A DNA stretch of 64,000 nucleotides. Source: Pseudomonas sp. URMO17WK12:I2 (GTDB taxonomy: Bacteria > Pseudomonadota > Gammaproteobacteria > Pseudomonadales > Pseudomonadaceae). The notes under the pieces are model-generated. The model was not told where the DNA came from. It saw only the letters and a program-made list of their open reading frames with translations, and did not search any database. The stretch spans positions 868,001 to 932,000 of the forward strand of contig NZ_QKYW01000001.1 in assembly GCF_003253735.1 (NCBI RefSeq). The letters run 5' to 3'. Within the stretch, counting starts at the first letter, position 1. Every line of letters begins with the position of its first letter. Of the stretch, positions 3,240 to 43,866 are shown piece by piece. A program made the position numbers and the translations under genes.

Positions 3240-4847
3240 ATGAATATCCGCCAGAAGATGCTCGCCTGTGGGGCCGTCAGTATCGTTGCCACGCTTCTGG
3301 TCGGCGGCATCGGCCTCTGGGGACAGGCGCAGTTGGGCGACGCGCTGGCCGCCAACGAGATCAATGCCAACGCCCTGCGCCATCACATGGATGGCGACAT
3401 GATGCACGATGCCCTGCGCGCCGACGTGCTCGGCGCCTTCCTCGCCGCCCCCGGCGACGCCGCAGCCGCGGCCCAGGTGCGCGACGACCTCAAGCAACAC
3501 AGCGAGCGCTTTCGCCAGGCCATGGCGCAAAACGCCAAGTTGCCGCTGGCCCCGGAAATTCGCCAGGCCATTGATGCCATTGGCCCGGTGCTGGAAGCCT
3601 ACATCCAGTCGGCCACGCGCATCGTCGAGCAGGCCCTGGTCGATCCGCAGGCAGCGCGCACGTTGATGCCCGATTTCTCGCGCAGCTTTGCCGAACTGGA
3701 AGGGCGCAACGAAAGGATCAGCGAACAGATCGAAGCCAGCGTCGCCCAGACCCGTGCACAAACCGAGGCCGTGGTACAGCAGGCGGCCTGGTGGCAATGG
3801 GGTAGCCTGGGCCTGGCCTGCCTGCTGATCCTGGCGATTACCCGGCAGCTGCTGCGCTCGGTGCTGCAGCCGCTGGCGAAAATCATCCAGGCCGCGCGCA
3901 GCATGGCCCAGGGCAACCTGCGCGCGCCGATCAGCGTCGACAGCCGCGACGAAGCCGGCCAGCTGCAACAGAGCCTGGCGGACATGCAGGCCAGCCTGCG
4001 GCAGATGATCGAAACCATTCGCACCGAGAGCGAGGAGTTGCGCCGCGCCTCCCAGTACCTGAGCCAGACCTCCAACGAAGTGGCACGCGGCGCCAACGAG
4101 CAGGCCGAAGGCGCCACCAGCATGGCCGCAGCCATGGAACAGATGATCGGCAATATCGCCCAGATCGCCGAACACACGCGCAGCACCCGGGACATCGCCG
4201 AGCAATCCGAGCAACTCACCACCAGCGGCGGGCAGGTGATCGTCGGTGTGGTCGATGGCATGAACCACATCGCCGATGCGGTCAACCGGTCGTCGCAGAC
4301 GGTCACCGTACTGGGCCAGTCGTCCGAGGAAATCGACTCGATCATCCAGGTGATTCGCGGCATCGCCGAGCAGACCAACCTGCTGGCGCTCAACGCCGCC
4401 ATCGAGGCGGCGCGCGCTGGCGAAGCCGGCCGCGGTTTCGCCGTGGTGGCCGATGAGGTACGCGGGCTGGCGGCCCGCACCGCGCAGTCGACGCAGGAAA
4501 TCACCGGCATGATCCAGCGCATCCGCGAATCAACAGCCCAGGCGGTGAAGAGCATGGACGCCGGGGTCAGCCGGGTCACCGAGGGCGTGGGCCTGGCCAG
4601 GCAGGCCAATACTTCGATCACCGAAATACGCCAGGGCGTGCAGCGCTCGGCGCAGATGGTCGACGAAATCGCCCACACCATCACCGAGCAATCCAAGGCC
4701 AGCAATGAGGTGGCCGAGCGGGTGGAAATGATCAGCGAGGTGGCCCAGCGCAACAACAGGGCCATGCAGGATCTGGCGCAGATGCTGGTGCAGATGGACA
4801 ACTCCGCCCAGGCCATGCAGGCCTCGGTGAGGCGCTTCGAACTCTAG
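3240..4847 (+). CDS. Methyl-accepting chemotaxis protein
   Basis: This 535-residue transmembrane chemoreceptor starts with a membrane helix (about 10-29), then a periplasmic ligand-binding region (about 30-183) rich in Ala and Gln that looks like a four-helix bundle. A second membrane helix (about 184-205), a HAMP linker and the long cytoplasmic signalling hairpin follow. The hairpin tip that contacts CheA and CheW is intact near residues 376-410, including the [19 protein letters not shown] stretch and [10 protein letters not shown]. Glutamine/glutamate pairs for methylation flank it. No CheR-tethering pentapeptide is present at the C-terminus, which ends RRFEL. The ligand cannot be told from sequence. 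It follows the ATPase gene by 50 bases on the same strand. Confidence 0.95.
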
Positions 4848-4882
4848 GCCGGATGCCTGCAGTCGCCAGGCTGGCTGCCTAG

Positions 4883-4906
4883 CGCCCTGGCGCCCTGGCG
4901 CCCTGG
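4883..4906 (+). repeat. Tandem octamer CGCCCTGG, three copies
   Basis: Three perfect head-to-tail copies of CGCCCTGG sit in the 128-base gap between the chemoreceptor and the DUF2388 gene. No function is evident; slippage is the simplest origin. Confidence 0.8.
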
Positions 4907-4975
4907 CAAGACAGTGGAACCAGTGGCGTGCGGCCGTACTCTCACTGAGAGGAAAACCCAACAGGAGTCATTGCC

Positions 4976-5278
4976 ATGCGCCGTTCAAGTTCGCTGTTGC
5001 TCGCCGGCCTTTTTCTGGCCGCTGCCACCCAGGTCCATGCCGTCAATCTGCGTGACGTGCTGTCGTCGGGCGCGACTACCGCGTCGACCTACCTGACGTT
5101 CAAGGACAACAAGATGATCGTCCCCGCCCAGGATGACGCCAGCAGCTATATCGCCAGCAACGGTGAAATCCGCGGCCCTTATCTGGAAGCGGCGCTGCAC
5201 AAGATCCGCACCGACAACCCGGATCTGCAAGCCAGCGACATGGAGCTGGCCAGCGCGATTCTCACTGCCCAGCAGTAA
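4976..5278 (+). CDS. DUF2388 small secreted protein
   Basis: This 100-residue protein has a Sec signal peptide (basic MRR start, hydrophobic core, likely cleavage after THVHA-like TQVHA near residue 22). The mature part of about 78 residues has the features I associate with DUF2388, a Pseudomonas periplasmic family of unknown function: SSGATTASTYLTF near the mature N-terminus and an alternating helical C-terminus ending ASAILTAQQ. The start is supported by an AGGAG-like site just upstream (AACAGGAGTC). The gene sits between the chemoreceptor and the convergent glycine-cleavage genes and shares a bidirectional terminator with gcvH. In P. aeruginosa gcvP lies, as I recall, at this position next to gcvH, but here it is missing. 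Confidence 0.75.
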   Translation: MRRSSSLLLAGLFLAAATQVHAVNLRDVLSSGATTASTYLTFKDNKMIVPAQDDASSYIASNGEIRGPYLEAALHKIRTDNPDLQASDMELASAILTAQQ

Positions 5279-20221: not shown

Positions 20222-20402
20222 AGCTCCCTGGAGTGTGCGCCAGTTGGTTGATGTCCCTGAGCCGATACGCACAACCCCGGGGGTTGTCAGTTGAGGCCGG
20301 TGTGCATGTCCGCTTGACGGAAAGCCTTAAGGTTTCCTGCAACCTCCACCTTGAACTTTCGGGTTCAAGGGCTAAACCGACAGCGGCATGCTGGGGAGTC
20401 AC
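20222..20402 (+). ncRNA. ssrS: 6S RNA
   Basis: The sequence between zapA and ygfA has the shape and recalled conserved blocks of Pseudomonas 6S RNA: a 5' part CTCCCTGGAG and a 3' part GCTGGGGAGT that pair to close the molecule, TGTCCCTGAGCCGATA near the 5' end, and the central stretches TGAGGCCGGTGTGCATGTCC and CCTCCACCTTGAACTTTCGG. 6S RNA mimics an open promoter and sequesters sigma-70 RNA polymerase in stationary phase. The ends are set from the closing stem and are approximate. The gene order zapA-ssrS-ygfA is conserved in gammaproteobacteria. Confidence 0.95.
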
Positions 20403-27335: not shown

Positions 27336-27537
27336 ATAGGAATGACGTAGTCGTATAAGGAGGGAATGGTAAGCATTGAGCTTGAGAGGCCGCACCGCGA
27401 GGAGGCGACAGGCGCCCGCTTTATTGTCGAATGTTCGATAAGGAATGCGTCGGCAGCGGCGTGCAGGGGGTCACTTAGGAAAAGCGACGGCCCCGAATGT
27501 AACATCGGCTTTGCGAAGGCGTCTAGCCTTCGGGCAG

Positions 27538-31756: not shown

Positions 31757-36561
<4,805 letters not shown>

Positions 36562-36571
36562 GGCCGTGCTA

Positions 36572-37081
36572 ATGCTCTTTCCCTACTTCAGAGACCCCGA
36601 CAACTTCGCCTATCGCCTCGCCGAGGCCGCGCCTTGCTCGCTGTGCAGTGCGCATGGGCTGTGGTTCTCGGCCGGAGGCTTCTACGGCCGCGAGACGATC
36701 GACTGTATCTGCGACACCTGCCTGGCTGCCGGCAAACTCAAGGCACTGGGGATCGAAACCAATGACGCCATGGAAGGTTCGCAGGAAGAGATAGACATCA
36801 TCGTCTACGCCACACCGGCACTACCGACCTGGCAAGACCGTGTCTGGCCGCGGATCGACGGCCGTTTCTGCGTCTTCGAGCGCTTTGCTTCCCGGGAAGA
36901 CTTCATCGACAAGGCCGAATTCATTGCATCCTTCGGCGACCGCTACCCAGGCTCCGACCTGGACTGGCTCTGGGAAATTCTCCCAGCAAAGCGCCTGACC
37001 CATCACCGCCAGGGCGGCGACGTGACTGTCTACCTGTTCACGAGCAACGGCACCAAGCACTGCACTTGGGACGCCAACTGA
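36572..37081 (+). CDS. CbrC-family (UPF0167) cysteine-rich protein
   Basis: This 169-residue protein resembles CbrC. Cysteine-containing motifs APCSLCSAHG near residue 22 and CICDTCLAAGK near residue 47 may bind zinc, and the segment PYFRDPDNFAYRL is the usual N-terminus. The E. coli member is regulated by the CreBC system and affects colicin E2 tolerance; nothing more is known. The ATG at 36572 is used because a GAGG lies eight bases upstream; an in-frame GTG at 36566 is closer to the selO stop. It is the last gene before a 366-base gene-free stretch and the integron array. Confidence 0.75.
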   Translation: MLFPYFRDPDNFAYRLAEAAPCSLCSAHGLWFSAGGFYGRETIDCICDTCLAAGKLKALGIETNDAMEGSQEEIDIIVYATPALPTWQDRVWPRIDGRFCVFERFASREDFIDKAEFIASFGDRYPGSDLDWLWEILPAKRLTHHRQGGDVTVYLFTSNGTKHCTWDAN

Positions 37082-37447
37082 CAGCTACGTAGGGCCAGTA
37101 ATCCGCCAGCATGCCTGCCCGTCCCGCAACGCGGCGTGCAGCATATTGCTCGGCAGACACTTGCCGTTTACCGGGCAACCTCTTATCGTCAAAATCCTCC
37201 GCGGCTGGATGCCCGCACGCGTAAACCATTGCCAAAGGGAACTTGCAGTGCACTTCGCCCTTATTCGCAGCTGCGCCACGACCTCGCCGGGCAGAGGTGC
37301 TGTGCAGACACAAGTCACGCGAATACGCGAGGGCTTTGTATGCGCATGCGGCAACCTATTGTTTTTTCTGAAAAACCAGCCTGCACCGTCAATGACGCAG
37401 CGACGTTATGCGGAACTCTGCAATAACGCATTAATGAAGAATTCTAT
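37082..37447. other. 366-base stretch with no supported gene, before the integron array
   Basis: I find only random overlapping reading frames on both strands; none has a good ribosome-binding site, a recognisable domain or codon use like its neighbours. I looked specifically for the C- or N-terminal end of an integron integrase on the minus strand and found none. No attC-like hairpin with a CTAAC/GTTAG pair and no promoter I would trust are visible. The base composition becomes AT-richer towards the array. Confidence 0.6.
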
Positions 37448-37463
37448 CTAATCACTGTTAGGG
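37448..37463 (+). other. attI-like simple recombination site at the head of the cassette array
   Basis: CTAA-TCACT-GTTAGGG resembles the L/R pair of an integron attI (in class 1 attI: CTAA-AACAAA-GTTAG). GTTAGGG at 37457-37463 has the GTTRRR core and begins the first cassette. No R''/L'' partner or hairpin lies upstream, as expected for attI rather than attC. No integrase gene is adjacent, so this may be a relic or a chance match. Confidence 0.45.
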
Positions 37464-37470
37464 TTGCCCC

Positions 37471-38436
37471 TTGAAGAAAGCATTAGAGTACACCGCCGCG
37501 TTACTAGCAACTCTTTCATGCGCTTCGGTTTTCTTGTATGTGTATATTGGTCTGTACGACTTAATAGGTAACTCATTTGGCCTGGGTTTGGGAGCGGTAA
37601 TCTTCATTGCACCATTGTGCATGGTTGCGGCCCTAGTCTTGTCATATATATTCTATCAACTTGAATATGTAAAACCTTTCGAACCATCAAATACAGCTCC
37701 GCGAATTAAATTCTTACTAATTTTCGTTGCTGCTATTAGTGCTCACGCTTATTTTGGTGGAAGCCTTGAGCGCTTCGAATCAAGCCACTCTAAAAAAACA
37801 AATATTGACGAACGATACACAAACAAAATCATAGAAATTGATATGCGGCCAGCAGGTTCAACCTTCGCGATACCTGCTAACCATTTATTCTCCATAGAGA
37901 ATAGCCGCATAATGAGCCCTCCCAACAAGGGACGCATGCAGGATAGAATTGAAATAAGATTTTTATTACCTGGTTTTGATCCTCGCACAGCCGAACACGA
38001 GAAAGTTTTCTCCGACCCAGATGGCAAAGAGATTCTTGTCCTTATAATTAAAAACAAAAGAAATGGCGGGGACGGAGATATTCGCAGGTGGCGTTATGTA
38101 ATACCGAGAAATACCACCAACCTGTCTCAGGTGACCTCAGAGCTTCTTGACACAGCAACAGAACAAAGAAAAAATTCTCCGGAATTGGCAGTAAAACATG
38201 ACAACCTAGGTCTACTTGAATACTACAGCAATGATGGGGTTTCAAGTTACTTTGAGTCTGGAAAAACTATATTTCGTTGCTGGAGCAAGTCGAATTATGC
38301 GATTTGCAAAGGCTCACACACTCTCACGCCGCAAATTATAGTCAATTACACTTTCCCTCGCTCATATTTGCCACAGTGGAAAGAAATTGATAATTTCGTA
38401 AAACAAACCACATCTACATATCTTGTCAATGAATGA
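37471..38436 (+). CDS. Cassette 1: unrecognised membrane protein
   Basis: This 321-residue protein starts at a TTG with AGGG (from the GTTAGGG core) seven bases upstream; no ATG alternative gives the hydrophobic start. Three membrane helices are predicted (about 8-27, 37-60 and 77-95), then a soluble domain of about 220 residues, rich in Asp, Asn and Arg, with two Cys (FRCWSKSNYAICKGS near residue 270). It reads much more AT-rich than its surroundings, which supports transfer. I do not recognise any family, catalytic motif or immunity pattern. It lacks a good start codon context for strong expression, so it would rely on an upstream promoter. Confidence 0.75.
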   Translation: MKKALEYTAALLATLSCASVFLYVYIGLYDLIGNSFGLGLGAVIFIAPLCMVAALVLSYIFYQLEYVKPFEPSNTAPRIKFLLIFVAAISAHAYFGGSLERFESSHSKKTNIDERYTNKIIEIDMRPAGSTFAIPANHLFSIENSRIMSPPNKGRMQDRIEIRFLLPGFDPRTAEHEKVFSDPDGKEILVLIIKNKRNGGDGDIRRWRYVIPRNTTNLSQVTSELLDTATEQRKNSPELAVKHDNLGLLEYYSNDGVSSYFESGKTIFRCWSKSNYAICKGSHTLTPQIIVNYTFPRSYLPQWKEIDNFVKQTTSTYLVNE

Positions 38437-38473
38437 AGAAAATCATGTCAATCAGGGATATTTACTCTAGCAA

Positions 38474-38549
38474 CCCTAACTAGTGGTTCAAGCCGTTCGC
38501 TGCGCTCACTGGGACGGGCTAAAGCCCGCCCCGTAACCAAACGTTAGAG
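38474..38549 (+). repeat. attC site 1
   Basis: R'' CCCTAAC (38474-38480) and R' GTTAGAG (38543-38549) frame an imperfect hairpin. The centre has CGGGCTAAAGCCCG. L'' TGGTTCAAG against the L' region leaves one unpaired C, the extrahelical base that sets strand choice in attC recombination. Confidence 0.9.
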
Positions 38550-38555
38550 AACACT

Positions 38556-38759
38556 ATGGAAGTCCTCGCTCGCACACTGATCATTGCCTGCAAATACATC
38601 AATGATCGAAGCAACTCGGACAGCGATGAAGATATTGCATTGCTAGAAACAATTGCTTCCGAACTTGGCGCAGCATCGGAGGATGAAAAACAGTGCTTAA
38701 TCCAAGCTGCAAAAGCATTAGGCGACGAAGCATGGCCCGAAGAGTTAGGTATTCTCTAA
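38556..38759 (+). CDS. Cassette 2: unrecognised small acidic protein
   Basis: This 67-residue acidic protein begins MEVLARTLIIACKYIN and has two likely helices (about 3-18 and 29-57) with many Asp and Glu. AGAG from the attC R' core is seven bases before the ATG and could serve as ribosome-binding site. Its stop lies inside the R'' core of the next attC, so the gene fills its cassette with almost no spare sequence. I do not recognise a family. Small acidic helical cassettes are sometimes antitoxins or immunity proteins, but there is no partner gene here. Confidence 0.68.
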   Translation: MEVLARTLIIACKYINDRSNSDSDEDIALLETIASELGAASEDEKQCLIQAAKALGDEAWPEELGIL

Positions 38760-38829
38760 CAATGCGCTCAAATCGCTCACGTCGTTCGCTGGGACGGGCT
38801 AAAGCCCGCCCCTTAACTAACCGTTAGAT
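38754..38829 (+). repeat. attC site 2
   Basis: R'' CTCTAAC (38754-38760) and R' GTTAGAT (38823-38829) frame a hairpin with centre CGGGCTAAAGCCCG. The L'' is altered (GCTCAAATC instead of GGTTCAAGC), and L' reads CTTAACTAAC, so the L arms pair less well than in the other sites. Confidence 0.88.
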
Positions 38830-38834
38830 TACTT

Positions 38835-39482
38835 ATGTCCGAAATCTCCGAAGATCCCAGAATTCAGCCCCTTCTAGAATGGAATCGGCTAGCGCGTGAA
38901 AACACTGAGAACGCCATCGTTTCCTCAATGTTTGAGGCAGCTGCTTGCGCAATTGAACCTATTGAAAAATTTTCCACTTGGCTACTTGTTGGTGCCGCTG
39001 CTATAGCTTCATTTTTTATCGCCAACTCAGAAAAAATAACACCCTTCTTGAGCAAGCATGGTTTTCTGATTTGCGGAGGGCTTCTATGTGCATCCTGCTT
39101 CTTTGGGCTCTTGGCAAAATTGGCTGCGCTCAGATCCAACATAGCCAGCCAAATCAACTTAGCAGTTTTAAAAACATTTAAAGAACACTTGGTAAATCAC
39201 GAAGAAGAAGAACAAAAAATACAAGGAGGCGCGGAATTCTGGGGTATAAATTTACAAACCGGAGTTCGCATCGAGAGAATTCTATCTGAATTTTCAAAGC
39301 CACTGCCTTGGTGGGCAAAGCTTCTGATGAAGTGGAAGCTAAAAAACCATGAAAACAACCCGCAAGTTGGCTACCTACCACTTATCAACAACCTGACTTG
39401 GCTCGGTTATTTTACAGCAGGGCAATCATTAACTTTCTTATCATTTCTTATTGTCGGCTTCATATACGCCGCCGCAATCTAA
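38835..39482 (+). CDS. Cassette 3: unrecognised membrane protein
   Basis: This 215-residue protein has an N-terminal soluble segment, then two adjacent membrane helices (about 49-65 and 74-92), a cytoplasmic or soluble middle with a Glu-rich patch (HEEEEQK) and a C-terminal pair of helices (about 180-213, ending FLIVGFIYAAAI). No known family was recognised. The ATG lies five bases after GTTAGAT, without a strong ribosome-binding site. The last codons overlap the R'' core of the next attC. Membrane-bound cassettes of this size are common in chromosomal integrons but are rarely characterised. Confidence 0.72.
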   Translation: MSEISEDPRIQPLLEWNRLARENTENAIVSSMFEAAACAIEPIEKFSTWLLVGAAAIASFFIANSEKITPFLSKHGFLICGGLLCASCFFGLLAKLAALRSNIASQINLAVLKTFKEHLVNHEEEEQKIQGGAEFWGINLQTGVRIERILSEFSKPLPWWAKLLMKWKLKNHENNPQVGYLPLINNLTWLGYFTAGQSLTFLSFLIVGFIYAAAI

Positions 39483-39553
39483 CAACTGGCTCAAGTCGTT
39501 CGCTTCGCTCACTCGGGACCGGCTAAAGCCGGCCCCTTAACCAAACGTTAGAA
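39477..39553 (+). repeat. attC site 3 (compensated centre)
   Basis: R'' ATCTAAC (39477-39483) and R' GTTAGAA (39547-39553). Its centre is CCGGCTAAAGCCGG, where the other sites have CGGGCTAAAGCCCG: a G-C pair has been swapped to C-G on both sides, keeping the stem. It is one base longer than the other sites. Confidence 0.9.
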
Positions 39554-39566
39554 GGCAGATCAAGTA

Positions 39567-39950
39567 ATGCGCTGGTTGTACATAAGGGTAGATGGCTCGG
39601 ACCTTTCAGCGTGCGAAAAATCCTTGATGATCGAGTTTGAAGATCTTGCAGCTCGCTTACATGAATTAGAGCCAAAATTGGTAAATTTCCAGCATCCAAA
39701 AGCGCCGGACATGAGCCCCCAAGATCTACCCGACTGGGACATTGGGTTAGATTTAAACCTGGAAGCAATTACTAAAAATCATGCCACGGCTATCACGTCC
39801 AACCTTCGGCAAATCGCAGTTGAAAAAAAAAGAGATTTCGTAGTGGGGCTTACGAACGAGTTCGGCATCAACGAAGACATTATTTTTATCCATGAAAACT
39901 CTGGAAACGCCGAAGCGGAAGCATTATGCAGCATCGTAACTGCCGTCTAA
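39567..39950 (+). CDS. Cassette 4: unrecognised small soluble protein
   Basis: This 127-residue protein starts MRWLYIRVDGSDLSACEKSL and alternates strand and helix segments, without signal or membrane segments. It contains two Cys and a run HPKAPDMSPQDLPDWD that looks like a flexible loop, then LTNEFGINEDIIFIHENSG near the end. I do not recognise a family. AGAAGG lies 11 to 12 bases before the ATG. Size and solubility would fit an immunity or regulatory protein, but nothing in the sequence proves it. Its stop lies inside the next R'' core. Confidence 0.68.
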   Translation: MRWLYIRVDGSDLSACEKSLMIEFEDLAARLHELEPKLVNFQHPKAPDMSPQDLPDWDIGLDLNLEAITKNHATAITSNLRQIAVEKKRDFVVGLTNEFGINEDIIFIHENSGNAEAEALCSIVTAV

Positions 39951-40020
39951 CTAGTGGTTCAAATCGCTCGCTCCGCTCACTGGGACGGGCTAAAGCCCGC
40001 CCCTTAACCGAACGTTAGGT
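39945..40020 (+). repeat. attC site 4
   Basis: R'' GTCTAAC (39945-39951) and R' GTTAGGT (40014-40020) with centre CGGGCTAAAGCCCG and L'' TGGTTCAAA against L' CTTAACC. All canonical parts are present. Confidence 0.9.
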
Positions 40021-40027
40021 AATACAC

Positions 40028-40381
40028 ATGCAGTGTCCAATATGTGCCGGACCTCTCCAAGAAATAGACGTAGCCCCATGCTATGACTGCGGCCATGAAC
40101 CTAATGAACTGGACGATCTGAAAAACGGAGAACACGAATACTATTTATTTGAGCTGTGGGCTAACAAGATAGTGCTTTGTGATTTTTGTGACCCAGACTT
40201 CGGCTCTTACTTCCCAAGGTACTTTGGGCTCCCGGACAACGCCTCAACAGACTATCCATTAAAGCTCATAAAAAAGATTGAGGCTCCTAAAACCATTCGT
40301 GACTTGTACTGCGAAAAATGTAAGCATCGACTAGCCTTTTTGAAATTCTTAGAAAGTGCACGCAGCCATAATAAAACCTAA
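40028..40381 (+). CDS. Cassette 5: zinc-ribbon-like cysteine-rich protein
   Basis: This 117-residue protein has four CxxC-type pairs: MQCPICAGP, APCYDCGH, LCDFCDPD and LYCEKCKH. Two zinc-ribbon-like knuckles at the N-terminus and one pair in the middle and one near the C-terminus are plausible, which suggests metal binding and perhaps nucleic-acid or protein contacts. The middle FGSYFPRYFGLPDN is a distinctive loop. AGGT from the attC core precedes the ATG by seven bases. No family was recognised with certainty. Such small zinc-ribbon proteins are found near polymorphic toxins, but that is context knowledge rather than evidence here. Confidence 0.7.
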   Translation: MQCPICAGPLQEIDVAPCYDCGHEPNELDDLKNGEHEYYLFELWANKIVLCDFCDPDFGSYFPRYFGLPDNASTDYPLKLIKKIEAPKTIRDLYCEKCKHRLAFLKFLESARSHNKT

Positions 40382-40451
40382 CAGATGGTTCAAATCGCTC
40401 GCTGCGCTCACTGGGACGGACTAAAGCCCGCCCCTTAACCAAACGTTAGGC
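40376..40451 (+). repeat. attC site 5 (mismatched centre)
   Basis: R'' ACCTAAC (40376-40382) and R' GTTAGGC (40445-40451). The centre has CGGACTAAAGCCCG, so one A-C mismatch breaks the stem that the other sites keep. Confidence 0.9.
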
Positions 40452-40460
40452 TTTCTAAAA

Positions 40461-40763
40461 ATGATCACGAAAGAGCAAGCTCATAAACTTGTCGCAGAGG
40501 CCGTTGGAGGAAAGCGTGATTGGCTGTCTGAGGGCGATGAGATAATTATTGTTGAAACAAAAACTATTGAAAGGTCGTGGGGTTGGGCCATCTTCCATAC
40601 ATCTAAGCTGTGGCTAGAAACTAACGATATTAAATATGCTTTGGCTGGTAATGCTCCGACGCTTGTAGAGCGTGAAACTGGGAAGCTCATTCCGACTGGC
40701 ACAGCCTTTAGCATTGACCGATACATTGAAAATTATGAGGCAACTGGCAATCCCCATGCCTAA
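40461..40763 (+). CDS. Cassette 6: Imm35/YrhB-like immunity protein
   Basis: This 100-residue protein matches the pattern I recall for the YrhB/Imm35 family of bacterial immunity proteins: an N-terminal helix MITKEQAHKLVAEAV, then ETKTIERSWGWAIFHTSK with a tryptophan pair, the YALAGNAPTLVERETGK segment and a final helix SIDRYIENYEATG. Imm35 proteins neutralise nuclease or other polymorphic toxins in the neighbouring gene. Here no toxin is present, so this is an orphan immunity gene captured as a cassette. The stop is inside a truncated attC. TTAGG precedes the ATG by about 11 bases. Confidence 0.72.
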   Translation: MITKEQAHKLVAEAVGGKRDWLSEGDEIIIVETKTIERSWGWAIFHTSKLWLETNDIKYALAGNAPTLVERETGKLIPTGTAFSIDRYIENYEATGNPHA

Positions 40764-40795
40764 CCAGTAATTCAAACCGTTCGCTTCGCTCACTG
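40758..40795 (+). repeat. attC site 6, truncated
   Basis: R'' GCCTAAC (40758-40764) and the left half match the other attC sites up to CGCTCACTG; from 40796 the sequence is unrelated and the centre, L' and R' are missing. This marks the end of the array. Confidence 0.88.
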
Positions 40796-40811
40796 CAGCA
40801 AAAAGGGGACC

Positions 40812-40893
40812 AGCAAAAAAGGGATAGATTTATTTATGGCGCAATGCTATTAGTCAAAAATAGATCCAAAATAAACCTGTTCCTTTTTCTGCT
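40812..40893. repeat. Palindromic element at the broken end of the integron array
   Basis: The left arm AGCAAAAAAGGGATAGATTT (40812 onward) and the right arm, read on the other strand, AGCAGAAAAAGGAACAGG are inverted near-copies of about 24 bases, separated by about 33 bases. A third partial copy of the left arm lies at 40797-40811. The motif GGGACAGATTTATTT is typical of mobile palindromes I associate with RAYT/REP-type elements, but no transposase is in view. Confidence 0.6.
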
Positions 40894-40923
40894 TTCATAG
40901 GCCCTATAAAGCGAGCACTTCGC

Positions 40924-41241
40924 TTAAATGCCGGTTATGAGTAGATCAAGCGCCGCGATGATTTCGTCACGCCGCGCCGATAAATCCGCCACCACGGGCC
41001 CCAGCTGTTTGTTGGCAATACCGGCCATTTGCGGCGTCATCATCACGTAAAGCTCGCCCTCGATATCAAACTGCGGGGTGAGGGTTTTCAGCATTTTTCC
41101 CTGCAGGGTGCTCGCCGCATAAAGCGGCACGACAACCCGCGTGCCGAGTTCTGCGAGCAGGTCGCTCTGTACATTGAGTAACAGGGGCACGGCGGCCCTG
41201 GTGGCAGGATTGATGTTTCTGTAAACGGCAAACTGCGCCAT
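40924..41241 (-). CDS. ccdB: CcdB-family toxin
   Basis: This 105-residue protein is CcdB-like: the N-terminus MAQFAVYRNINPATRAAVPL, the strand LLLNVQSDLLAEL and the C-terminal helix DEIIAALDLLITGI are typical of this gyrase poison. CcdB traps DNA gyrase on DNA; the C-terminal three residues are important in F-plasmid CcdB, where they end WGI. Here the end is TGI, so the tryptophan is missing, which would likely reduce gyrase poisoning or indicate a different target. Its start shares one base with the ccdA stop (TAATG). It lies on the minus strand, opposite to the cassettes, and has no attC of its own. Confidence 0.85.
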   Translation of the reverse strand: MAQFAVYRNINPATRAAVPLLLNVQSDLLAELGTRVVVPLYAASTLQGKMLKTLTPQFDIEGELYVMMTPQMAGIANKQLGPVVADLSARRDEIIAALDLLITGI

Positions 41242-41664: not shown

Positions 41665-43866
41665 ATGGAAATCAAGGTCAACTTTCTCGACAACCTTCGC
41701 CTCGAAGCCAAATTCGACGACTTCACGGTGATCGCCGATCAGCCGATTCGCTACAAGGGCGACGGCTCGGCGCCGGGGCCGTTCGACTACTTCCTGGCCT
41801 CCTCGGCCTTATGTGCGGCGTACTTCGTCAAGCTGTACTGCCAGACACGGGACATCCCCACCGAGAACATTCGCCTGTCGCAGAACAACATCGTCGACCC
41901 GGAGAACCGCTACGCGCAGATCTTCAAGATTCAGGTCGAGCTGCCGGCGGATATCTCGGAGAAGGATCGTCTGGGCATCCTGCGCTCCATCGACCGCTGC
42001 ACGGTGAAGAAGGTGGTGCAGCAAGGCCCGGAGTTCATCATCGAGGAAGTCGACAACCTCGACGCCGATGCCCAGGCGCTGCTGATGCCGGGGTCCGATA
42101 CCACCACCTACATCCCGGGCAAGGACCTGCCGCTGGAGCAGACCATCGCCAACATGTCGGGCATCCTCGCGGATCTCGGGATGAAGATCGAGATCGCCTC
42201 CTGGCGCAACATCGTGCCCAACGTCTGGTCGCTGCATATCCGCGATGCGCAGTCGCCAATGTGCTTCACCAACGGCAAGGGTTCGACCAAGGAAAGCGCA
42301 CTGGCCTCGGCACTGGGCGAATTCATCGAGCGGCTCAACTGCAACTTCTTCTACAACGACCAGTTCTGGGGCGAGGACATCGCCGCGGCCAAGTTCGTGC
42401 ATTACCCGAACGAGCGCTGGTTCAAGCCGGGCCCGAAGGATGCGCTGCCCGCAGAAATCCTCGACGAGCACTGCCTGGCCATCTACAACCCGGACGGTGA
42501 GCTGCGCGGCTCGCACCTGTACGACACCAACTCGGGCAACACGCTGCGCGGCATCTGTTCGCTGCCGTTCGTGCGCCGCAGCGATGGCGAGACGGTGTAT
42601 TTCCCCTCCAACCTGATCGAGAACCTGTACCTGTCCAACGGCATGAGCGCCGGCAATACCCTGGCCGAAGCCCAGGTGCAGTGCCTGTCGGAAATCTTCG
42701 AGCGGGCGGTGAAACGCGAAATCCTCGAAGGCGAGCTGTGCCTGCCGGACGTGCCGCAGGAGGTGCTGGCCAAGTACCCGGGAATCGTCGCCGGCATCCA
42801 GGGCCTGGAGGAGCAAGGCTTTCCGGTGCTGGTCAAGGATGCCTCGCTCGGCGGTGAATTCCCGGTGATGTGCGTGACCCTGATGAACCCGCGCACCGGC
42901 GGCGTGTTCGCCTCCTTCGGCGCCCACCCGAGCCTGGAAGTGGCGCTGGAGCGCAGCCTTACCGAGCTGCTGCAGGGCCGTAGCTTCGAGGGCCTCAATG
43001 ACCTGCCGCAGCCGACCTTCGACAGCCTGGCGCTGACCGAGCCGAACAACTTCGTCGAGCACTTCATCGACTCCAGCGGTGTGGTGTCGTGGCGCTTCTT
43101 CGGCGCCAAGGCGGACTTCGAGTTCGTTGAGTGGGATTTCTCCGGCGCGGGCAGCGATTCCAACGAGCAGGAAGCCGCGACGCTGTTCGGCATCCTCGAA
43201 GACCTCGGCAAGGAAGTCTACGTAGCCACCTATGACGACCTCGGCGCCAATGCCTGCCGCATCCTGGTGCCGGGTTACTCGGAGATCTATCCGGTCGAAG
43301 ATCTGGTCTGGGACAACACCAACAAGGCGCTGCTGTTCCGCAAGGATATTCTCAACCTGCATAGCCTCAGCGACCGCGAGCTGAAGTCGCTGCTGCGTAA
43401 CCTCAACAACACCGAGGTCGACGACTACACCGACATCAGCACGCTGATCGGCATCGAGTTCGATGACAACACGGTGTGGGGCCAGCTGACCATTCTCGAG
43501 CTGAAACTGCTGATCAACCTGGCGCTGAACAAATACGACGACGCCAAGGAGCTGGTCGAAGCCTTCCTGCAGTACAACGACAACACCGTCGAGCGCGGCA
43601 TCTTCTACCAGGCGGTCAACGCCGTGCTGGAGATCCAGCTGGAGGATGACCTCGAGCTGGCCAACTTCGAGCACAACCTGCGGCGCATGTTCGGCGGCGA
43701 GCGCATGGACGCGGCCATTGGCTCGGTAGCCGGTGGCGTGCGCTTCCACGGCCTGACGCCGACCAGCATGCAGCTCGAAGGCCTGGACCGTCACCTGCGC
43801 CTGGTAGAGAGCTACAAGAAGCTGCATGCGGCGAGGGCCAAGGCGGCTGGTCTGAGCAGCAACTAA
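41665..43866 (+). CDS. OsmC-YcaO fusion protein
   Basis: This 733-residue protein joins an OsmC-like domain (about 1-130, including GSAPGPFDYFLASSALCAAYF) to a YcaO domain (about 190-540). The OsmC peroxidatic cysteines are expected near residues 50 and 110; Cys is seen in SSALCAAYF and in SIDRCTVKK. The YcaO part has SALASALGEFIERL and SEIFERAVKREI, which are typical ATP-binding elements of this family; YcaO enzymes activate amide backbones with ATP, and E. coli YcaO helps RimO in beta-methylthiolation of ribosomal protein S12. About 190 residues of helical C-terminus follow (from 545), perhaps TPR-like. The start has no close ribosome-binding site, but the N-terminus is typical. Confidence 0.9.
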   Translation: MEIKVNFLDNLRLEAKFDDFTVIADQPIRYKGDGSAPGPFDYFLASSALCAAYFVKLYCQTRDIPTENIRLSQNNIVDPENRYAQIFKIQVELPADISEKDRLGILRSIDRCTVKKVVQQGPEFIIEEVDNLDADAQALLMPGSDTTTYIPGKDLPLEQTIANMSGILADLGMKIEIASWRNIVPNVWSLHIRDAQSPMCFTNGKGSTKESALASALGEFIERLNCNFFYNDQFWGEDIAAAKFVHYPNERWFKPGPKDALPAEILDEHCLAIYNPDGELRGSHLYDTNSGNTLRGICSLPFVRRSDGETVYFPSNLIENLYLSNGMSAGNTLAEAQVQCLSEIFERAVKREILEGELCLPDVPQEVLAKYPGIVAGIQGLEEQGFPVLVKDASLGGEFPVMCVTLMNPRTGGVFASFGAHPSLEVALERSLTELLQGRSFEGLNDLPQPTFDSLALTEPNNFVEHFIDSSGVVSWRFFGAKADFEFVEWDFSGAGSDSNEQEAATLFGILEDLGKEVYVATYDDLGANACRILVPGYSEIYPVEDLVWDNTNKALLFRKDILNLHSLSDRELKSLLRNLNNTEVDDYTDISTLIGIEFDDNTVWGQLTILELKLLINLALNKYDDAKELVEAFLQYNDNTVERGIFYQAVNAVLEIQLEDDLELANFEHNLRRMFGGERMDAAIGSVAGGVRFHGLTPTSMQLEGLDRHLRLVESYKKLHAARAKAAGLSSN

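Follow-up and report, generated by a model that had tools for sequence, protein, structure and literature searches.

A cassette array headed by a putative attI without an adjacent integrase gene in Pseudomonas, and its counterparts at the same locus in related species

The array in the window and its left end

We analysed a stretch of 64,000 nucleotides, here called the window, from the draft genome of Pseudomonas sp. URMO17WK12:I2 (contig 1, 868001-932000; genome 5.28 Mb, 29 contigs). A 3.4-kb stretch of low-GC open reading frames (ORFs) locates between a UPF0167 gene and the ccdBA-ycaO genes. It forms an array of six gene cassettes separated by attC sites, which starts at a putative attI docking site and has no integron integrase gene (intI) beside it. 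The features of the locus are listed below, with attC scores from a covariance model (R1).

35098..36561, plus strand: left flanking gene, which we take to be selO (YdiU)
36566..37081, plus strand: UPF0167 (PF03691) gene, between selO and attI
37312..37459, plus strand: putative attI platform without intI, related by sequence homology to intI-adjacent attI sites of other Pseudomonas
37471..38436, plus strand: cassette 1 ORF, 321 aa; TTG start in the ORF listing, N-terminus hydrophobic by eye; no family above cut-off
38476-38547, plus strand: attC 1, 95.2 bits
38556..38759, plus strand: cassette 2 ORF, 67 aa; no family above cut-off
38756-38827, plus strand: attC 2, 81.7 bits
38835..39482, plus strand: cassette 3 ORF, 215 aa; hydrophobic segments by eye; no family match
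39479-39551, plus strand: attC 3, 94.4 bits
39567..39950, plus strand: cassette 4 ORF, 127 aa; no family above cut-off
39947-40018, plus strand: attC 4, 97.2 bits
40028..40381, plus strand: cassette 5 ORF, 117 aa; CxxC pairs, zinc-ribbon-like by eye; no family above cut-off
40378-40449, plus strand: attC 5, 92.2 bits
40461..40763, plus strand: cassette 6 ORF, 100 aa; Imm35 (PF15567)
40760-40795, plus strand: truncated terminal attC (half-site, 36 bases), 31.1 bits
40924..41579, minus strand: ccdB and ccdA, right flank of the insertion
41665..43866, plus strand: YcaO-domain gene, right flank

R1 was built from 27 of 29 extracted attC sites, all from other genomes, after two short ones had been dropped; it is mostly a sequence model, with 9 base pairs. 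The five complete sites reach E values of 1e-19 to 1e-23 and the half-site 2.4e-6 in the 64-kb window. On the plus strand of the window R1 finds no further match at E 10 or better, and its five weak minus-strand matches all fall within the same attC sites. In the predicted bottom-strand folds, a central 9-pair hairpin is common to all five complete sites. An earlier note on this DNA, made from the sequence alone, had counted five complete sites and one half-site and expected attC models to score them. R1 bears out both points, with 81.7-97.2 bits for the complete sites and 31.1 bits for the half-site; the length of 76-77 bases given there has to be corrected to 72-73. P. stutzeri-type integrons (InPstQ, InPstBAM) have attC sites of about 72-77 bases, as here.

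The GC content of the six co-oriented ORFs is 41-46%, compared with 63.5% for the window, in agreement with the lower GC described before. The genes had also been called promoterless, and in a consensus scan of 37080-40930 promoter-like sites occur at chance frequency (7 found, 5.1 ± 2.1 in shuffles), with no cassette promoter Pc standing out. The products of cassettes 1-5 match no Pfam or NCBIfam family above the family's own cut-off. The earlier statement that five of the six products lack a recognised match holds by these two collections, the sixth being Imm35, and the phrase 'reservoir of unstudied functions' fits five of the six by family search only. Distant relatives of the cassette 6 product are plasmid-borne and annotated YrhB. 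A tblastn search of plasmids gave no match for cassettes 1, 3 and 5, and three distant ones for cassette 6. We dropped the idea that the cassettes are defence genes, the best PADLOC match reaching only E 0.0081.

At the left end, the putative attI extends from a conserved box, AAGTCACGCGAATACG (37312-37327), to the crossover G|TT (37457/37458). The 52 bases preceding cassette 1 match two genomes among 149 searched, G137 and G081, where they adjoin an intact intI; in a third matching genome, G059, the match falls elsewhere in the query. The G081 protein is an integron integrase by TIGR02249 (416.7 bits, cut-off 265). The homology to intI-adjacent attI sites covers about 150 bp and reaches the box, which lies about 130 bp from the crossover and adjacent to the expected position of intI and its promoter Pint. 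We refer to the IntI lineage of this attI as lineage B.

The integrase gene itself is missing here. A tblastn search of intact IntI against 36500-37460 gave a best E of 0.23, and a whole-genome search with the IntI profile (E≤0.001) gave no match within the window, so that the earlier claim of no intI beside the array stands. The search for a remnant of intI upstream was given up. In local alignments of 37082-37400 with the intI regions of G137, G081 and contig 2 of the same genome, the scores were 66 (highest of 100 shuffles, 69), 61 (63) and 66 (60), respectively. The contig 2 alignment beats its shuffles, but it is gap-ridden and tblastn is silent there. A coding remnant may persist in this segment, with one of three alignments above its shuffles, and we do not claim it. 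The segment about 213-252 alignment columns before the crossover (window about 37207-37247) is 97% identical in the four species compared below, exceeding its surroundings. A candidate upstream element common to the window's array and G081 (contig 59) scores 53 one way, with a shuffle maximum of 45; the other way round, the score is 40 against 36.

The array has at least two attC sites close together by R1 and no integron integrase nearby by profile search and tblastn. It is thus a cassette array without an integrase (CALIN), as the earlier note had called it, under the IntegronFinder 2 rule of at least two attC sites and no nearby integrase given in the accessible text of PMC9024848. The same text mentions that CALINs are 'proposed to be degraded integrons'. 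The array here is like this class in both respects and differs from it in retaining an attI: compared with a complete integron, the attC array is present, the attI appears to be present by homology, and the adjacent intI is absent. The array begins, at 37457, with the crossover of what can be recognised as an attI, and we therefore infer that it is an integron minus intI rather than a set of cassettes at a random site.

The same locus in other species

We looked for counterparts of the locus in named genomes by way of its right flank. Beyond the window, occupied intI-less loci of the same type (selO-attI-array-ccdBA-ycaO, hereafter C1-type) were found in genome G163, on one contig, in P. punonensis CECT 8089 (L224), which we take to be the same genome as G357, and in Pseudomonas sp. 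PA27. Among 392 relatives, a search at E≤1e-15 gave only the window's locus and that of G163; the other two came from separate searches.

Upstream of the array, the homology between the four species runs into attI without an intI-sized gap, at 80-92% per high-scoring segment pair (HSP). For the window, G163 and PA27, one HSP per pair covers the stretch between about -3299 and 0 relative to the crossover (88-91%). The UPF0167 gene is present at these three loci and was not found at that of P. punonensis, where the upstream region therefore aligns in two pieces and the same junction is kept over the last 0.3-0.4 kb. Downstream, the ccdBA-ycaO flank is 90-92% identical between the C1-type loci. 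Between these flanks, the cassette zone contains no common stretch of at least 110 bp (blastn, E≤1e-5) in any of the six species pairs, up to the region past the last attC. The comparison of cassette content in relatives, which the earlier note had proposed, thus came out negative: no cassette is common to any pair. By the model, there are five attC sites and a half-site in the window, nine in G163, seven in PA27 and one in P. punonensis. The four sequences diverge at the crossover, with a mean pairwise identity of 0.90 over -52..-13 (0.69-0.97 further up) and 0.35 from +28.

Empty versions of the locus, without attC, are present in P. argentinensis, Pseudomonas sp. G34 and P. seleniipraecipitans. 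In P. argentinensis the order is selO, a gene that we take to be of GFA type, ccdBA and ycaO. P. punonensis and PA27 have the GFA-type gene 3' of the array; in the window's genome and G163 it was not found. Homology between the window and the empty loci restarts at about 40898-40915, right of the array. An import of ccdBA with the array is ruled out, as ccdBA adjoins ycaO in the empty loci as well.

Several repeats were noticed around the locus. The 40 bases 3' of the half-site (40796-40836) recur scattered in several genomes and on contig 10 of the same genome; this short dispersed repeat sits exactly where the last attC is cut. In P. punonensis (L199, G357 contig 10), a 204-bp copy of the 3' end of selO, 89% identical, lies beyond the array at +3259..3462 from attI. 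Elsewhere in the window, a 6S RNA (20222-20401) and a Pseudomon-Rho RNA leader (27389-27497) are both ordinary.

attI platforms and integrases in the genome and the genus

The integrase search over the whole genome, which had been suggested earlier, confirmed that no intI adjoins the array, and it also revealed that the genome is not free of integrases. A frameshifted intI lies on contig 2 (G000 contig 2, 366887-367829), beside a gene that we take from its sequence to be rimO. Its IntI is spread over two reading frames, one covering profile positions 1-226 and the other 228-314, and we therefore regard this intI as broken, in the assembly or through sequencing error. The rimO-side IntI, lineage A, is 49-61% identical to lineage-B IntI. 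The genome harbours the rimO-side lineage, which may be that of the P. stutzeri-type integrons, together with an attI of a second IntI lineage, about 50% identical, whose own intI is missing. We ruled out that the array was seeded from the genome's rimO integron, as its attI belongs to the other lineage. A lineage-B locus of the type seen in G326, G269 and others was also sought in this genome; pieces of its flanks lie on contigs 2 and 15, and no attI, intI or attC was found in the stretches retrieved around them.

Over the whole genome, R1 gives 29 matches in five places (E≤0.01): six in the window, 10 and three at two places on contig 2, six on contig 6 and four at the end of contig 12. With four more attC arrays and one frameshifted intI of another lineage, the array is one of several in a genome that does carry an integron integrase gene. 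The contig 6 array adjoins a gene presumably of MMPL type. It starts at a lineage-B attI (75% identity over 57 bases), and no intI was found within 2.5 kb. The small array at 168 kb of contig 2 has a lineage-A-like attI (alignment score 90, shuffle maximum 48), and the head of the contig 12 array lies beyond the contig end. One cassette is common to the arrays on contigs 2 and 6.

An Imm35-family cassette is the last cassette of three arrays in this genome, whose attI sites belong to two lineages: window 40461-40795, contig 6 (L037 13165-13464) and contig 2 at 168 kb (L039 8799-9098). The other two proteins are 86-88% identical to the window's. The terminal attC after this cassette is truncated in the window and at 168 kb, and degenerate on contig 6. 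In the compared loci of other genomes, no Imm35 cassette was found at E≤1e-5. The contig 6 array also contains an IS110-family transposase split over two frames (L037 11173-12339), with matches of similar size in other arrays; the element is reminiscent of the IS1111-attC group. The 3' end of the MMPL-type gene is present a second time beyond this array (L037, +4836..4992 from attI), where two pieces totalling about 160 bp are 79% identical to it.

To see how widespread such platforms are, we searched 398 genomes of the genus, including the window's own and drawn evenly from a larger group, with the attI core pattern at up to two mismatches. This gave 39 lineage-B attI sites in 23 genomes; reversed-pattern controls gave none. 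Within 2.5 kb upstream of attI (tblastn, E≤1e-3), a near-full intI was found at 10 of the 39 sites, an N-terminal remnant at two and none at 27. One of the ten, on contig 22 of G176, has an internal stop, and a few of the 27 look by eye as if they retained the start of intI. At least one attC follows downstream, by a simple pattern, at 20 of the 27 intI-less sites; three of the other seven (G132, G186 and contig 7 of G357) have less than 2 kb of contig there. IntI at E≤1e-40 is present in 47 of the 398 genomes, with the five best candidates per genome scored, and 9 of the 23 attI-bearing genomes are without it (G011, G077, G112, G132, G186, G302, G316, G357 and G381).

Since the core served as the search key, no conclusion can be drawn from its conservation; the box about 130 bases upstream played no part in the search. 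Box identity of at least 0.8 was observed at 21 of 29 intI-less sites, all 11 intI-bearing sites and none of 336 background windows. For these counts the contig 6 site and PA27 were added to the intI-less group and G063 to the intI-bearing one; orthologues are included, so the sites are not independent. The stretch with the LexA site and Pint reaches the same identity at 6 of the 29 intI-less and 10 of the 11 intI-bearing sites, and a fixed left boundary of an attI-led module was accordingly rejected. In G163, which carries an intact lineage-B intI, the attI of that gene shares 20 of 21 core bases with the intI-less attI of the same genome. Up to four attI sites occur per genome: G112, a genome in one contig, has four attI-led arrays (L207-L210) and no IntI at E≤1e-40, and G007 has four attI sites and one intI at another place.

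Other loci were compared in the same way. The contig 6 locus recurs without intI in G381 (93% over 3.8 kb upstream) and P. punonensis (89%). It has no cassette in common with G381; in P. punonensis only 1.7 kb lies downstream on the contig. Orthologous flanks with intI in one genome and without it in another were found for G011/G326 and others, G112 (1780k)/G176 (contig 22) and G137 (279k)/G179. G077 and G302 have sequence in common only beyond the last attC. In total, 162 cassettes of at least 120 bp from 51 loci (10 of them without a delimited cassette) were compared, with simple-pattern boundaries and a match over at least 60% of the shorter cassette. Of the 32 matching pairs, 15 match over about 1.35-1.39 kb; these we attributed to an IS110-family element and excluded, the family being tested on the contig 6 copy only. 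None of the remaining 17 is between orthologous loci. At 9 of 42 loci the upstream flank has a repeat in the downstream flank (E≤1e-3), compared with 3 of 168 mismatched pairs. Ordinary dispersed repeats may account for the short ones, and the 3'-end copies could hint at how platforms arrive.

Origin of the array and its relation to known systems

We consider it fairly probable that the window carries a chromosomal integron which lost intI before the arrays diverged, and that an integrase acting in trans has exchanged its cassettes since. This reading draws on the attI homology, on the intI-less junction common to four species with different arrays, on the similar case of contig 6 and G381, on the orthologous flanks with and without intI, and on the near-identical core of the two attI sites in G163. 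At the C1-type locus, intI would have been lost before the arrays of the four species diverged, with attI and the cassettes staying behind. An integron integrase from a gene elsewhere in the cell would later have inserted cassettes at attI and attC and excised them. One candidate enzyme would be of the lineage-B type, still intact in G163. The Imm35 homologues in three arrays of one genome and the cassette common to contigs 2 and 6 fit with exchange between loci. By now the array is probably static in the window's strain, because the only IntI found is frameshifted and the terminal attC is truncated.

Exchange in trans is inferred from the comparison of sequences, and a number of observations speak against it. 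No intact IntI was found in three of the four C1-type genomes: the window's own is frameshifted, PA27 has none at E≤1e-15, and the five best candidates of P. punonensis, those that were scored, include none at E≤1e-40. IntI enzymes reportedly prefer their own attI (Collis 2002). In P. punonensis the crossover triplet is TTT instead of GTT, and its attI, judged by this triplet, may be inactive. Two other groups of orthologous loci each have one segment in common, at non-corresponding positions: 219 bp between G112 (957k) and G176 (contig 10), and 368 bp between G062 and G176 (contig 20). Finally, occupied and empty loci are intermixed in the selO and ycaO trees.

The intermixing in these trees makes it plausible that whole alleles move by homologous recombination, and the main rival is that such recombination, through the flanks or the attC repeats, swaps cassette blocks or whole alleles between strains with no need of a trans integrase at this locus. 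The attC sites, as similar repeats of about 72 bases with a mean column identity of 90%, could anchor the exchange. However, none of the four occupied loci has intI, and something still built different arrays beside an intI-less attI; moreover, the arrays differ from the attI crossover onward in all four. We regard this explanation as rather unlikely, and both this process and exchange in trans may act. A less probable course is recent independent decay, in which intI remained in cis until lately, was deleted separately in each species and left the arrays frozen since. Decay of intI is common, nearly one third of the genes being pseudogenes in the accessible text of PMC2426708, and intI-bearing and intI-less versions of other loci do exist. 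Yet the window, G163 and PA27 are collinear into attI and P. punonensis has the same junction, which four deletions would have to share.

It is very improbable that the array is a plain CALIN, with cassettes at a secondary attG-like chromosomal site and an incidental resemblance to attI. CALINs away from the integron locus are frequent in Xanthomonas, in about half of the genomes according to the accessible part of PMC12444791. Against such an origin stand the roughly 150 bp of attI homology, including a box that was not used in finding the sites, and the absence of any reversed-pattern match in the 398 genomes.

Extending the preferred reading of intI loss and exchange in trans, we tentatively speculate about a distributed integron, though with clearly less confidence. 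One integrase lineage would serve several attI-led satellite arrays scattered over the chromosome, cells without the enzyme would keep the docking sites, and the platforms would spread by a process that can duplicate the 3' end of a gene beyond the array.

Part of this is already in print. In the accessible part of PMC12444791, Xanthomonas is alike in that intI is often lost and CALINs lie at conserved loci and 'can be mobilized in trans by a functional IntI'; many singleton cassettes are found in two of its species that lack a full-length intI. Differences are that this part does not report attI retention at dispersed loci, and that one and the same pair of cassettes occurs throughout the intI-less X. 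citri pv. citri, in contrast to the turnover seen here. According to the accessible text of PMC2426708, 20% of bacteria have more than one integrase gene. In titles and the openings of abstracts, with few subscription journals covered, we found no prior description of intI-less arrays that are led by an attI and differ in all their cassettes between orthologous loci, which suggests that this combination is new.

Integrase-less arrays are usually seen as dead relics. Here the docking site persists across species, while the captured genes have changed completely. Counts of complete integrons overlook such attI-led arrays because the usual software ignores attI outside class 1; IntegronFinder 2.0 detects attI only for that class (accessible text of PMC9024848). 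The loci described here offer natural test material for the question of whether such arrays can still be filled in trans.

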